Assembly (NCBI GenBank): GCA_014800735.1
Contig: JAAVFP010000003.1
Span: 3,614 to 67,254, forward strand
Direction of reading: 5' to 3'
Length of the DNA stretch: 63,641 bases
Origin: Bacteroidales bacterium
GTDB lineage: Bacteria; Bacteroidota; Bacteroidia; Bacteroidales; Muribaculaceae
Position numbers and translations under genes: made by a program. Positions 43,347-47,194 of this stretch are shown in pieces. Every line of letters begins with the position of its first letter. Within the stretch, counting starts at the first letter, position 1. The notes below the pieces were generated by a model. It had not been told where the DNA came from, did not search any database, and saw only the letters and a list, made by a program, of their open reading frames with translations.

Positions 43347-43358
43347 TCAGCAGTACAT

Positions 43359-43542
43359 AAGTAAGTATTCAAATTTAACCGATAGTAAGTGATTCAAAAA
43401 TCTTTTATACTCTATGCGGCTTCTTTTTTGCCAATTTCAGATTGTCGTTCAGTCGCTTAGCTCGCTAAGCTCCTTCGCTCCGCACTGAAATTGACTAAAA
43501 ATAAGCTCGCATATAGCATAAATTAAATTTGAACACTTACTT
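43359..43542. repeat. Palindromic intergenic element A (184 bp)
   Basis: Termini AAGTAAGTATTCAAATTTAA (43359-43378) and its near-exact reverse complement (43523-43542, one mismatch). Inner arms also pair (ATGCG ... CGCAT; CAATTTCAG ... CTGAAATTG). The centre is GTC followed by GCTTAGC-TC-GCTAAGC (43455-43470) and TCCTTCGCTC. The left arm holds an insertion that partly repeats its terminus. The core design is shared with elements B, C1 and C2. Confidence 0.85.
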
Positions 43543-43583
43543 AAAAAATGAGGATATGCCACGGAGGCGTATCCTCATTTTTT
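43543..43583. terminator. Bidirectional terminator between fabD and the M18 peptidase
   Basis: AAAAAATGAGGATA (43543-43556) pairs perfectly with TATCCTCATTTTTT (43570-43583), giving T6 runs on both strands. It abuts element A directly. Confidence 0.92.
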
Positions 43584-43597
43584 ATGCAGTTACCTGA

Positions 43598-44890
43598 CTA
43601 CAGGCTGAAGAATTCGCAGAAGGCGTCAGTAATATATACGTGGTCGGAGGTAGAGGCGGTTTCGCGGCATGAGTGCATGGCCCAGAGAGGAGCGCCCATG
43701 TCGACGCCACGCAGGGGCAGCTGCGAGGTGAGGATGTTTCCCAGGGTAGAACCGCCGGCCACATCGCTGTGGTTCACGAATTCCTGGCAGGGTACCTCGG
43801 CCATCTCGCAGATGGTTTTGAACACTGCAGCCGAGTCGGCATCGGTCATGTACTTGCAGTTGGCGTTAATCTTCACCACGGGGCCGCCACCCAGCACAGG
43901 ATGGTTGGTGGGATCCTGTTTTTCGACGTAGTTGGGATGGAGTCCGTGGGCGTTGTCGGCCGAAATCATGAAGGAGTTGGCCACGGCGCGCATGAACTGC
44001 TGCTCCGTCAGGCCGCTGCACAGGCAGATCCGGCGCAGGATGTACTCCAGGATGGGCGATGCCGCGCCTTGCTTGGTGCCCGAGCCGGTTTCCTCGTTGT
44101 CGAAAATGGCCATTACGCGGGTTTTGCGCGAGGGTGTGTCGCACATGGCTGTTATGGCGATTAGGGCTGCATGGACCATGGAGAGGTCGTCGAGGCGGCC
44201 GCAGTTCATCAGCGATTCGTCAAGGCCCAAGGTTGCGAAGCCCTGGCAGTCATAGAGGGAGAGGTCGTAGTCGATGATATCGTCGGGCGATACATCCATT
44301 TTCCCGGCCACGAAGCTGCGCAGCGAGAAATCGGAGTCAACGCCGATACCGGCCACGGGAATCATATCTTTCTGCTTGGACAGCTTGTTGCCGTCGTTGA
44401 CATTGCGGTTAAAGTGGATTGCGAGGTGGGGGATTACCAGCAGTGGTTGTTCGGCATCGAACAGCTCGTGGCGCGGACGCAGTGGATTGTCCGAGCGCAG
44501 AATCACGCGGCCGGCTACCGACAGCGGGCGGTCAAACCACGTGTAGAGAATCGGGCCGCCGTAGACCTCGGTGTTGAGTCGGAGCGAGCCGCCCTCGCCG
44601 CGCATTTCGCAGTGGGGCTTGATGCGGAAGCCGGGCGAGTCGGAGTGTGCGGCGATGATGTTGAAGCCCTGGTTGGCGATGTCCTCGCCGACAATGAAGG
44701 CGAAGATTGCCGAGTCGTTCTGCACCACATAGTGGCGGCCACCGGGAGTCAGGTGCCAGTCGTCGGTCATTTCGAGGCGGGTGAAACCGGCGTACTCAAG
44801 CTGCCGGGCGGCAGAGCGCACGGCCCAGAAATTGACAGGGGAGCCATCCATGAAAAAACGGAGGCTTTCAATGATTTCGTTGTCGATCAT
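43598..44890 (-). CDS. M18 family aminopeptidase
   Basis: A 430-residue zinc aminopeptidase (aspartyl aminopeptidase family). Metal motifs: IIAAHSDSPGFRIKP (about 78-92), LYDCQGFATLGLDESLM, VMAIFDNEETGSGT (about 259, catalytic Glu), ISADNAHGLHPNY and the C-terminal MGAPLWAMHSCRETASTSD. It removes N-terminal, often acidic residues in the cytoplasm. It overlaps the DUF5063 gene by 4 bp (ATGA). Confidence 0.96.
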   Translation of the reverse strand: MIDNEIIESLRFFMDGSPVNFWAVRSAARQLEYAGFTRLEMTDDWHLTPGGRHYVVQNDSAIFAFIVGEDIANQGFNIIAAHSDSPGFRIKPHCEMRGEGGSLRLNTEVYGGPILYTWFDRPLSVAGRVILRSDNPLRPRHELFDAEQPLLVIPHLAIHFNRNVNDGNKLSKQKDMIPVAGIGVDSDFSLRSFVAGKMDVSPDDIIDYDLSLYDCQGFATLGLDESLMNCGRLDDLSMVHAALIAITAMCDTPSRKTRVMAIFDNEETGSGTKQGAASPILEYILRRICLCSGLTEQQFMRAVANSFMISADNAHGLHPNYVEKQDPTNHPVLGGGPVVKINANCKYMTDADSAAVFKTICEMAEVPCQEFVNHSDVAGGSTLGNILTSQLPLRGVDMGAPLWAMHSCRETASTSDHVYITDAFCEFFSL

Positions 44891-45414
44891 TCGTGTGTTA
44901 ATGTTTTGCTTTGATAAAGTGAATTGGCTGCCCGCAGGGCGGAGCAGAGTGTGTCGCTAAGATATTGGTTGAAGCGGCAGAGCATGTCATCGACCACTTC
45001 GGGAATCATTTCGGCGGGAATCTGGCGTACGGTGCCGGCAAAGTCGCCCACGGCCTGATATATGTCGGCCAGCTGCTCGGAGAGCGACACGCCCACGGGG
45101 GTGTCGGAGTAGCGCATATCCTCCACAGGAGTGTCGAGGTACACGTCGAACTCGCCGAAGAGTGTTGCCATGGACTCGCGGGCAGCGTTGTAGCCGTCCT
45201 CGTCCAGAATCTGGTAGATAGTGTCGTTTTCAACCGGCTCCTCGTCGCGGTCCGAGAGGTCGGTGAGTGTCACATAGAACCGAGGGAGGTAGCGGAGCAC
45301 TTCGCGCAGGAAGGCCTGGGGTTCGGTTTCGGGGGCGGCGTCCACCACCCGGCAGTATTCGACCGACAGGCCGACAAGGGTAATTGCGGCGGTGTTGATA
45401 TTCTGATTTTCCAT
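44887..45414 (-). CDS. DUF5063 protein
   Basis: A 175-residue cytoplasmic protein matching DUF5063, with ITLVGLSVEYCRVVDAAPET near the start and a helical body (FLREVLRYLPRFYVTLTDLS; EDMRYSDTPVGVSLSEQLAD). Function unknown. It is joined to nadD (TAATG) and to the M18 peptidase (ATGA) by overlaps. Confidence 0.8.
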   Translation of the reverse strand: MENQNINTAAITLVGLSVEYCRVVDAAPETEPQAFLREVLRYLPRFYVTLTDLSDRDEEPVENDTIYQILDEDGYNAARESMATLFGEFDVYLDTPVEDMRYSDTPVGVSLSEQLADIYQAVGDFAGTVRQIPAEMIPEVVDDMLCRFNQYLSDTLCSALRAANSLYQSKTLTHE

Positions 45415-45998
45415 TACTTATCAGTAGGCAGGTAGAGTTTGTTGTCCTGGATGTATTTATATACGCCTTGGGGCAGGAAATAGTTGACGTTTCGGCCGCG
45501 GGCAATGGCGTTGCGGATGAATGTGCTTGAAATATTCACCATGGGAGCGTTGACCACTTCGAGGCCGTCCACGTGTATGTTCTCCACCGGATAACCGGGA
45601 CGGCGGTAAACCATCACGCCGAATTCCTCGAGGATGCGGTCGGCATCGCGCCACTGGTCGAACACCTGCCAGTTGTCGCTGCCGATAATGAGCTTGAACT
45701 TGCACTCTGGGTAGCGTTCGCGCAGCAGTTCGAGGGTGTTTATGGTGTAGGAAGGCTTGGGCATGGACAGCTCTATGTCGCAGATTTCGATGTCCTTGGC
45801 TCCCTTGGCGGCGATGGAGAGCATGCTGAGGCGCTTCATGTCGGGAATCAGTTCGGCCTGGTCCTTGAGCGGGTTGCGGGGCGAGAGTGTGAGCCACACT
45901 TTGTCCACGTAGCCCCACTGGGTGAGAAATGAAGCCAGCATCATGTGGCCGATGTGCACGGGATTGAATGAGCCCCCGAGAATTCCTACAGTTTCCAT
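45414..45998 (-). CDS. nadD: Nicotinate-nucleotide adenylyltransferase
   Basis: A 194-residue nucleotidyltransferase that makes nicotinate adenine dinucleotide in NAD synthesis. The N-terminal GILGGSFNPVHIGHMMLA (residues 5-22) has the GxFxPxHxGH motif and the C-terminal ISSTFIRNAIARGR is the second signature. Order gmk-nadD is common in Bacteroidales; here element B has come between them. Confidence 0.97.
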   Translation of the reverse strand: METVGILGGSFNPVHIGHMMLASFLTQWGYVDKVWLTLSPRNPLKDQAELIPDMKRLSMLSIAAKGAKDIEICDIELSMPKPSYTINTLELLRERYPECKFKLIIGSDNWQVFDQWRDADRILEEFGVMVYRRPGYPVENIHVDGLEVVNAPMVNISSTFIRNAIARGRNVNYFLPQGVYKYIQDNKLYLPTDK

Positions 45999-46015
45999 AA
46001 TGATAGATGTGTGTT

Positions 46016-46210
46016 AAGTAACTCTTAAAAATTAGTTTATATTTACGTTTATCAAGCAAACCCCTAGGGCCAATATATCTTTGCTCGTCTTTGCGGCGCT
46101 TTTAATTCTTTCACTCAGTCGGTTAGCTCGCTAACCTCCCTCGCTCAATAATCAAAATCCCTCGCAAATCCTTCACAAATATATATTGGCTAATTTTTAA
46201 GGGTTACTTA
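46016..46210. repeat. Palindromic intergenic element B (about 195 bp)
   Basis: Termini AAGTAACTCTTAAAAATTAG and, reversed, AAGTAACCCTTAAAAATTAG (46191-46210). Inner blocks GCCAATATAT and TTTGCG also pair, with a loop-out of about 30 nt in the left arm. The centre is GTC, GGTTAGC-TC-GCTAACC (46121-46136) and TCCCTCGCTC. It fills the nadD-gmk gap and ends 5 nt before the gmk stop codon. Confidence 0.85.
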
Positions 46211-46215
46211 TGAAG

Positions 46216-46791
46216 TTATTGGAGCGATGCGAAGGCATCAATGAGGTTGCGGGTCTGGCGGATGGCGGTAGCGAGGTCGTCGTTCACAATCTGCCGGTCG
46301 AATTCGGGTGCACGCGATATTTCGTACTCGGCACGGTCCACGCGGGTGTCAATCACCTCGGGCGACTCGGTTCCGCGGAGCTCCAGGCGATGGCGAAGCT
46401 CGTCGATGCTCGGGGGTGCGATGAACACCGCCAGAGCCTGGGGGCCGTATTCCTGCTTCACACGCAGGGCACCGTTCACATCGAGGTCCAGGATGATGTT
46501 ACGGCCCTCGCCGATGATGCGGTCAATCTCGCTACGCAGGGTGCCGTAGAAGCGGCCGGGGTAAACTTCCTCGTACTCAAGGAACTCACCATCGACGATA
46601 GCGTCGCGGAAGGCTTCCTCGGTCATGAAGTAGTAGTTCACACCGTCCTTTTCGCCCTGGCGTGGAGCACGTGTGGTTGCCGACACGGCGAAGCCCAGGT
46701 TCAGGTCGCCGCCCTCGAGCAGGGCGTTGATGATGGTGGATTTTCCGCAGCCCGATGGTGCCGCGATTACTATGATTTTTCCTTTGTTCAT
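46216..46791 (-). CDS. gmk: Guanylate kinase
   Basis: A 191-residue nucleoside monophosphate kinase converting GMP to GDP. Walker A is VIAAPSGCGKSTI (residues 7-19); the GMP-binding region has SATTRAPRQGEKDGVNYYFM (about 36-55) and EYEEVYPGRFYGT; NIILDLDVNGALRVK follows. Length is normal. Element B lies immediately downstream and composite element C immediately upstream. Confidence 0.97.
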   Translation of the reverse strand: MNKGKIIVIAAPSGCGKSTIINALLEGGDLNLGFAVSATTRAPRQGEKDGVNYYFMTEEAFRDAIVDGEFLEYEEVYPGRFYGTLRSEIDRIIGEGRNIILDLDVNGALRVKQEYGPQALAVFIAPPSIDELRHRLELRGTESPEVIDTRVDRAEYEISRAPEFDRQIVNDDLATAIRQTRNLIDAFASLQ

Positions 46792-46805
46792 GTGATGAAT
46801 ATTTA

Positions 46806-47151
46806 AGAGCTTGTTTAATAACTACTGTTAAATTCTGGGCGGCCAGTCTTTGAGTGATTTTGGCTTAATGATAAGGGAGTGTGCCCTTAGCACTCGACCG
46901 CAGAATTAAGCCAAAAGCGCCAAATAATGGCCGGCGATGGATATTTAACAACAGTCAACATTAATTAGTATCTTAATTTATGTAAGAGCAAGCTTTTCTC
47001 TGCCTTTAAGTTACTTGTTGTCTCTCATCTTTCGGGTGCCTTTTACGCTTTGTTTCAGTCGTGTACATTGAGTACACTCCTTCAACGTCAGCGAAAAATC
47101 CCCTCCGAAATATGAGACCCAGCATTTAACGGTAGTTATTAAACTAGCTCT
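46806..47151. repeat. Composite palindromic element C (346 bp, two hairpin units)
   Basis: Outer arms AGAGCTTGTTTAATAACTAC (46806) and, reversed, AGAGCTAGTTTAATAACTAC (47132-47151) extend to 34 nt with 3 mismatches. Two units lie inside. C1 (about 46815-46960) is a long palindrome with TTTTGGCTTAAT on both arms and a core that on the minus strand is GTC, GAGTG...CACTC, TCCCTT. C2 (about 47010-47125) has core GTC, GTGTAC-N5-GTACAC (47061-47077), TCCTTCAACG. No gene fits in this 400-nt gap. Confidence 0.8.
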
Positions 47152-47194
47152 AAGTGTATGCGCCTGCATGCACGCAAGCGCATACACAGTTTTC

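Follow-up and report, generated by a model that had tools for sequence, protein, structure and literature searches.

An inward-facing tandem G.A hairpin at the ends of IS5-family transposons and in miniature elements of Muribaculaceae: a candidate structured RNA

IS5-family elements and miniature inverted-repeat transposable elements (MITEs) are known kinds of mobile DNA, and short terminal sequences are generally regarded as all that a DDE transposon requires. In IS10 and IS50, an RNA structure near one end of the insertion sequence (IS) limits the expression of the transposase, which is known as fold-back inhibition. A structure in the 5' untranslated region near the IS end has a similar effect in ISPpu9, according to the available part of its description (PMC8450116). 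As far as the accessible text goes, Bacteroidetes are also reported to carry palindromic candidate RNAs (PMC8040213) and CGTC-tagged repetitive extragenic palindromes (REPs), which consist of a CGTC tag, a stem of 8-9 bp starting with A-T pairs and a CCA tail (PMC3733652). The window analysed here is a stretch of 63,641 nucleotides from a Bacteroidales bacterium of the family Muribaculaceae (assembly GCA_014800735.1, contig JAAVFP010000003.1, positions 3,614 to 67,254), in which three palindromic units, A, B and C, lie in gaps around fabD, nadD and gmk. These units are complete non-autonomous transposons (MITEs) and share one structured module with related elements. It is a hairpin whose apical stem covaries freely and stands on conserved tandem G.A pairs. 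The same hairpin was found at both ends of IS5-family transposons, where its foldable strand reads inward.

The module is about 69 nt long and reads GAUGARGGAG-stem-YGACYGAAGA. The original prediction had centred each unit on the complementary strand, as a small hairpin between GTC and TCCyT. This core is indeed common to all units, but the conserved unit is larger, and the informative strand is the complement, RAGGAG-hairpin-YGACYGA. On the purine strand the cores of many elements show GARGGAG-stem-YGACYGA, and the GTC strand carries an RGTC tag, a 6-7 bp stem starting with G-C or G-U and the tail TCCyT; both flanks of the small hairpin are unpaired in the predicted folds of the GTC strand, as had been proposed. 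Searches with A, B and C across the genus gave weak matches mostly centred on the hairpin or on the terminal repeat.

A first alignment (A1) was made from 28 cores with 22 nt of flank per side, of which one near-duplicate was dropped and 27 were used. The core pattern required most of the apical stem, so that apical pairing is partly given by construction, while pairing of the outer arms was not required; the length requirement excluded the shorter cores of A, B and a fourth family, D, and four TA-type cores of other genomes were included. The strand of every aligned sequence was set by the purine motif. The A1 sequences form one continuous hairpin over 69 columns. From outside to inside it begins with an outer stem, followed by a tandem G.A step (19 and 17 of 27) and a single pair that covaries (U-A 15, A-U 4, C-G 3, G-C 3). 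Next come another such G.A step (21 and 26 of 27), an R-Y pair (A-U 12, G-C 11, G-U 2, A.C 2) and a G-C pair. A third tandem G.A step, present in all 27, and the apical stem of 6-7 bp complete the hairpin. At 23 of the 25 Watson-Crick positions both sides change yet stay paired, and one outer-arm mismatch occurs as A.G or, exchanged, as G.A (14 versus 10 of 27). Paired cells make up 86.9%, compared with 61.9% after shuffling and at most 45.1% when the partner is slid. A second alignment (A2; 150 of 153 matches) was fitted to the model. Over 121 distinct sequences, 90.5% of cells are paired (67.8% shuffled, at most 49.5% slid), with 616 double-changed cells versus 162 in shuffles. Thus, both the covariation of the hairpin bases and the selection on structure that had been suggested for the units are borne out in 27 and in 121 sequences. 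The covariance model R1 also detects families A and B (Table 1) and D (33.9 bits), none of which is in its training set. No relevant Rfam family matched: at a relaxed threshold the region of the window gave one unrelated match outside the units, far below threshold (E 0.23), and eight loci gave nothing at E <= 1.

An association with transposons is seen in locus L105, where an IS5-family transposase lacking its N-terminal part (NF033580, 161 bits; PF01609) lies between two inward-facing modules. Loci of named genomes were picked by transposase similarity, and 54 of 55 were tested (L220 was left out). Two modules were present in 16 of the 54, and in all 16 both face inward. At least one module occurs in 37 of 41 loci with a transposase identity of 49% or more, the other four (L181, L211, L216 and L227) being short pieces at contig ends, and in none of the 13 loci at 47% or less; L184 (49%) and L201 (54%) contain both modules. 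A relative with 41% identity, L192, has terminal repeats of 20 bp and no module. It therefore seems that the module was added within a clade of IS5-type elements. Terminal repeats such as AGACCCCGTTCCCCAATATTTGTTAACGCTGGGG follow directly on the outer side of the modules. Another set contained 14 module pairs, and 13 of them are enclosed by an inverted repeat of 31-36 nt that starts 14-17 nt beyond the module, with scores of 25-36 as opposed to a control maximum of 10; the remaining locus, L244, has three modules. For single modules of this set 17 of 33 score above the control, and in at least six of these 17 the repeat is the hairpin arm itself. An AGACCC-type repeat, once as AGGACCC, was recognised by eye in the outer flank of each of 13 strong single matches, and tblastn revealed transposase remnants in 20 of 59 loci. 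The ends of the MITEs (TAAGTAAG..., GAAGTGATTTAAAC..., TTAGAGATTGTC...) differ although the module is common to all, so the module spans families with different terminal repeats. In L179, L190 and L201 the left module ends, as judged by eye, about 95-105 nt before the likely start of the transposase gene, which means that it does not simply cover the start codon. A stretch like GCGATGATAAGGTAATTTTA recurs directly inside the left hairpin (for example, L190:2300-2400) and is followed by an A+T-rich region, which may contain the promoter of the transposase.

In IS5-family transposons and in MITEs with two modules the foldable strand reads inward from each end, directly inside the terminal repeats, and selection has kept the pairing of this strand in particular. 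The latter was examined in 44 clusters at 85% identity. In the outer arms G-T pairs outnumber A-C (60 versus 17) and G.A outnumber T.C (63 versus 4); among the inner pairs G-T again prevails over A-C (25 versus 7). RNA parameters give the inward strand the better fold in all 44 clusters (mean -27.3 versus -17.1 kcal/mol). Because of these polarity counts and this folding advantage, selection can be said to see mainly one strand, which is the opposite strand at the two ends of a transposon.

Coordinates of the three elements and their hairpins are collected in Table 1. The long imperfect palindromes lie where they had been predicted, and as single strands with DNA parameters they fold far better than expected, with z = -6.9 (A), -4.2 (B) and -12.0 (C); no shuffled sequence folded as well (0/200, 0/200 and 0/100, respectively). 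By direct reading and from the folds, all are short, non-coding and bounded by terminal inverted repeats, those of unit C being also readable as GAGCTTGTTTAATAACTAC. Units A and B carry one centrally placed module and unit C carries one near each end. Of the four separate units originally proposed, A and B stand, but C1 and C2 are halves of a single element of 344 bp with terminal inverted repeats and a TAA duplication. The arms do differ between units, as had been noted; the reason is that A, B and C belong to different MITE families, with arms alike within a family. The units may be MITEs of the IS5 family: unit C has the end architecture of transposase-bearing elements in relatives and repeats similar to theirs, and units A and B have the hairpin in common with IS5 elements and loosely similar repeats.

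Table 1. Positions of the MITEs and GA-hairpin motifs in the window
Feature	Position	Strand	Details
Unit A, complete TA-type MITE, 182 bp	43360..43541	.	inverted ends AGTAAGTRTTCAAATTTAA, read directly
Flanks of unit A	43358-43359 and 43542-43543		TA
GA-hairpin motif of unit A	43431..43495	- (inward/purine strand)	R1 33.9 bits, E 1e-5; from L001:1632-1696
Unit B, complete TA-type MITE, 192 bp, gmk-nadD gap	46017..46208	.	inverted ends AGTAACYCTTAAAAATTAG
Flanks of unit B	46015-46016 and 46209-46210		TA
GA-hairpin motif of unit B	46096..46162	-	R1 42.1 bits, E 8e-8; from L009:1587-1653
Unit C (C1 + C2), single MITE, 344 bp, gmk-DUF4301 gap	46807..47150	.	IS5-type terminal inverted repeats GAGCTTGTTTAATAACTACTGTTAAAT
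TAA duplication of unit C	46804-46806 and 47151-47153
GA-hairpin motif C1, left end of unit C, inward	46853..46920	+	R1 70.1 bits; from L009:2344-2411; training-set member
GA-hairpin motif C2, right end of unit C, inward	47036..47103	-	R1 57.1 bits; from L009:2527-2594; training-set member

The units are multicopy in their own metagenome-assembled genome (MAG; 2.6 Mb, 58 contigs, 86% complete; G000). Counting the unit of the window each time, there are 11 matches of at least 109 nt to A, 18 matches to B at E <= 1.3e-29 and 26 full or partial copies of C at E <= 7.5e-50, many of which lie where a contig ends; family D, with the common core, is also present. Long copies of one family are mostly about 87-99% alike, including the arms, with outliers down to 67%. 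TA was found on both sides of 7 of 8 inspected copies of A and of 10 of 11 copies of B having both ends, although it could be part of the repeat rather than a duplication, and 4 of 5 complete copies of C have matching TNA flanks. For the comparison with relatives, which covered the sites of B and C, gmk was located in 47 of the genus's 48 genomes, and 30 of the loci were used. The gmk-nadD gap measures 3-105 bp in all 28 same-genus relatives that have both genes, versus 221 bp in the window, and the gmk-DUF4301 gap at most 61 bp in all 17 that keep the DUF4301 neighbour, versus about 406 bp. Since these gaps are short, B and C are insertions absent from the compared relatives. The suggestion of mobile non-autonomous elements proved correct, and further copies exist in this genome and in relatives.

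Element C often contains the end of a contig of the MAG (contigs C1, C4, C5, C11, C14, C16, C18, C19, C20, C21, C24, C35, C52 and others), in some cases close to query positions 116-124 or 235. These are points where the MITE and a longer element could part, and full-length copies may have been lost in assembly. Some copies of family A (L007, L008) and family B (L023, L026) have an extra insert in or beside the hairpin, TCGGCTTGCCGCTTTC in the A-type loci and the similar TCGGCTNTGCCGCTTT in the B-type loci; since the inserts are alike but occupy different positions in the two families, they suggest a hairpin of very small size that is mobile or copied. Directly after unit A, at 43543-43583, another inverted repeat (AAAAAATGAGGATATGCC...GGCGTATCCTCATTTTTT), separate from the unit and with a run of T, occurs between fabD and the M18 peptidase gene, which are convergent; it resembles an ordinary terminator, though the consensus terminator scan did not list it.

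R1 detects the module, with E <= 1e-3 as the threshold, in 141 of the 247 genomes from the taxonomic family of the window. These belong to 22 of 30 genera, many have at least 20 matches each, and at least well over a thousand copies exist across Muribaculaceae. Among 295 genomes of the order, five gave matches at E <= 1e-4, namely three of the same family, G446, which belongs to a different family and has a convincing match (54 bits), and G476. The matches in G476 (Bacteroidales, different family) are weak, E 4e-5 to 7e-5, and REP-like. Hairpins of similar build are repeated in this genome (L271:1421-1796 and L266:1343-1573, the latter sharing part of its length with an open frame). No IS ends were seen at these loci, and the hairpins are possibly a REP-like cousin. 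The closest named transposase loci are labelled Duncaniella, Paramuribaculum, Muribaculum and uncultured Muribaculaceae, and also Barnesiella and Porphyromonadaceae. One left-end stretch of L105 had no match among phage or plasmid records, and no exact 29-base match was found in viral contigs.

A structured RNA is the best current guess for the nature of the module, and it is its RNA function that we infer here. The module would act in RNA made when transcription of the neighbouring host genes runs into the element, limiting this read-through, an explanation whose chances appear evenly balanced. A polymerase arriving from either side would meet the foldable form first, a protein would probably bind the folded RNA at its G.A internal loops, and the folded RNA would block or remove the read-through, possibly as a processing site. 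As a consequence, no transposase would be made from host promoters and the ends would not be overrun; the shielding function is suggested by analogy with IS10/IS50 and ISPpu9. The MITEs would have taken over the module from autonomous elements and retained it during their spread. An RNA facing incoming transcription is favoured mainly because a single transposing DNA strand holds only one good hairpin, while a transcript from either side meets the good form first. It is also conceivable, though with somewhat less confidence and only as a tentative proposal, that the module represents a new structured-RNA class of DDE transposons, in which strand-polarised tandem-G.A hairpins of one fold guard both ends, appear in the foldable form only in transcripts that come from outside and are recognised by a dedicated protein of the host or the transposon, the many copies across Muribaculaceae keeping the fold under selection.

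Several observations count against this shielding role. A MITE with one motif would be shielded on one side only, and such MITEs have no clear orientation bias relative to the flanking genes. Their orientation was scored by codon usage, as the longest open frames were misled by antisense frames (fabD was called antisense). In a first set of 28 elements, four of which were dropped for short flanks, 12 are sense, 4 antisense, 4 divergent and 3 convergent, with one element that appeared twice counted once; in a further set 17 of 19 elements were scored, with 8 sense, 5 antisense, 2 convergent and 2 divergent; tandem gene pairs thus give 20 sense versus 9 antisense, many with low margins. Among the inner pairs of the 44 clusters T.C outnumbers G.A (9 versus 1). 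DNA parameters also favour the inward strand in 44 of 44 clusters (mean -12.7 versus -9.4 kcal/mol), and since folding energies do not tell RNA from single-stranded DNA, the inward strand could act as the latter. An IS5 transposase query from a genome of the same genus had no match in the 86% complete MAG of the window. An autonomous partner of A and B was not found either, as no inward repeat pair 1-3 kb apart was detected in 8 genomes with a one-mismatch pattern. Terminator-like sites are not in excess (4 found, 4.0 expected). An intrinsic terminator, with a GC-rich stem followed by a T run, was considered as a candidate and rejected: besides the lack of an excess, one site lies in the outer arm of unit C (46918-46936) and no site coincides with an apical stem.

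The ends on which IS5-type transposases act are generally taken to be double-stranded, and this counts against an explanation in which the hairpin acts as DNA. Here the transposase or a host protein would recognise one extruded single strand per end as an accessory transposition signal, which MITEs would keep in order to move. Such a signal would fit the location of the module at each end, where its spacing from the terminal repeat hardly varies, its occurrence in non-coding MITEs of at least three repeat types, and the DNA folding energies. The strand-specific selection of wobble and G.A pairs is, however, unexpected for a cruciform, which shows both strands, and the related L192 has terminal repeats without hairpins; on balance this explanation seems unlikely, but it deserves serious attention. 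A host-directed regulatory RNA, by which MITEs seed an mRNA stabiliser, processing site or attenuator between genes of an operon, would be in line with the position of B and C inside the DUF4301-gmk-nadD gene run and with the 20 of 29 insertions between tandem genes that read sense. It is rather improbable given that the orientation bias is weak, that the insertions of B and C are not shared by the relatives examined and that the transposons themselves retain the motif at either end.

The mobilisation of REP-like elements by a Y1 transposase of the REP-associated tyrosine transposase (RAYT) type, recognising the GTC-hairpin, was among the original proposals and is not supported. Tagged small hairpins do resemble REPs, including the CGTC-tagged ones that the accessible text reports from Bacteroidetes (PMC3733652), but no terminal repeats or duplications would be expected for REPs mobilised in this way, and the elements have long terminal inverted repeats and TA/TNA duplications. 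DDE genes or remnants of the IS5 type lie between or beside the hairpins, although a Y1 gene was not searched for, and the RGTC tag, the 6-7 bp stem starting with G-C or G-U instead of A-T pairs and the TCCyT tail do not match the CGTC-tagged REPs as described in the part seen (PMC3733652). Such an origin is very improbable. Equally hard to believe is that the module has no function and that the likeness stems from recent common descent or from self-complementary MITE arms only: copies within a family are mostly closely alike, but between families the stem bases are replaced yet paired, pairing falls from 90.5% to at most 49.5% when partners are slid, and the A.G mismatch is exchanged for G.A.

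A module that is found family-wide, shows extensive covariation, is foldable on one strand and occupies both ends implies that RNA, or a single strand, adds a further layer to how IS5-type elements live. In addition, R1 is a ready search model for a repeat with at least 20 matches in many genomes of a dominant gut family, which occurs at contig breaks and inside gene runs. A full-text literature search, with subscription journals and preprints mostly outside its coverage, brought up no recognised description of the motif. An uncurated description may exist among the palindromic candidate RNAs reported from Bacteroidetes (PMC8040213).

Compared with known systems, the likely parent elements of the hairpin are those of the IS5 family (NCBIfam NF033580 IS5_3; PF01609, PF13340), with which the module-bearing elements share transposase domains, terminal inverted repeats and TNA duplications; they differ in having twin inward G.A hairpins of about 69 nt inside both ends, where L192 has repeats only. 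The BrickBuilt MITE of Porphyromonas gingivalis (PMC4596501) and the QMITEs of Coxiella (PMC10969869) are, in the accessible parts of their descriptions, likewise short non-coding intergenic elements with terminal inverted repeats and transcripts able to fold. The difference from what is described there is that a specific module is kept here across MITE families with different repeats and throughout much of a bacterial family. REPs, as GTAG- and CGTC-tagged palindromes, also have a small hairpin flanked on one side by a conserved, unpaired tag, as far as the part of the source seen goes (PMC3733652). The module is longer than these, has conserved G.A internal loops and is carried by elements with terminal repeats and DDE transposases; no Y1 association was seen, Y1 not having been searched for. 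Finally, in IS10/IS50, and in ISPpu9 as partly described (PMC8450116), the RNA structure involves the ribosome-binding site at one end, whereas the module is placed at both ends and, in L179, L190 and L201, stops about 95-105 nt before the likely transposase start.

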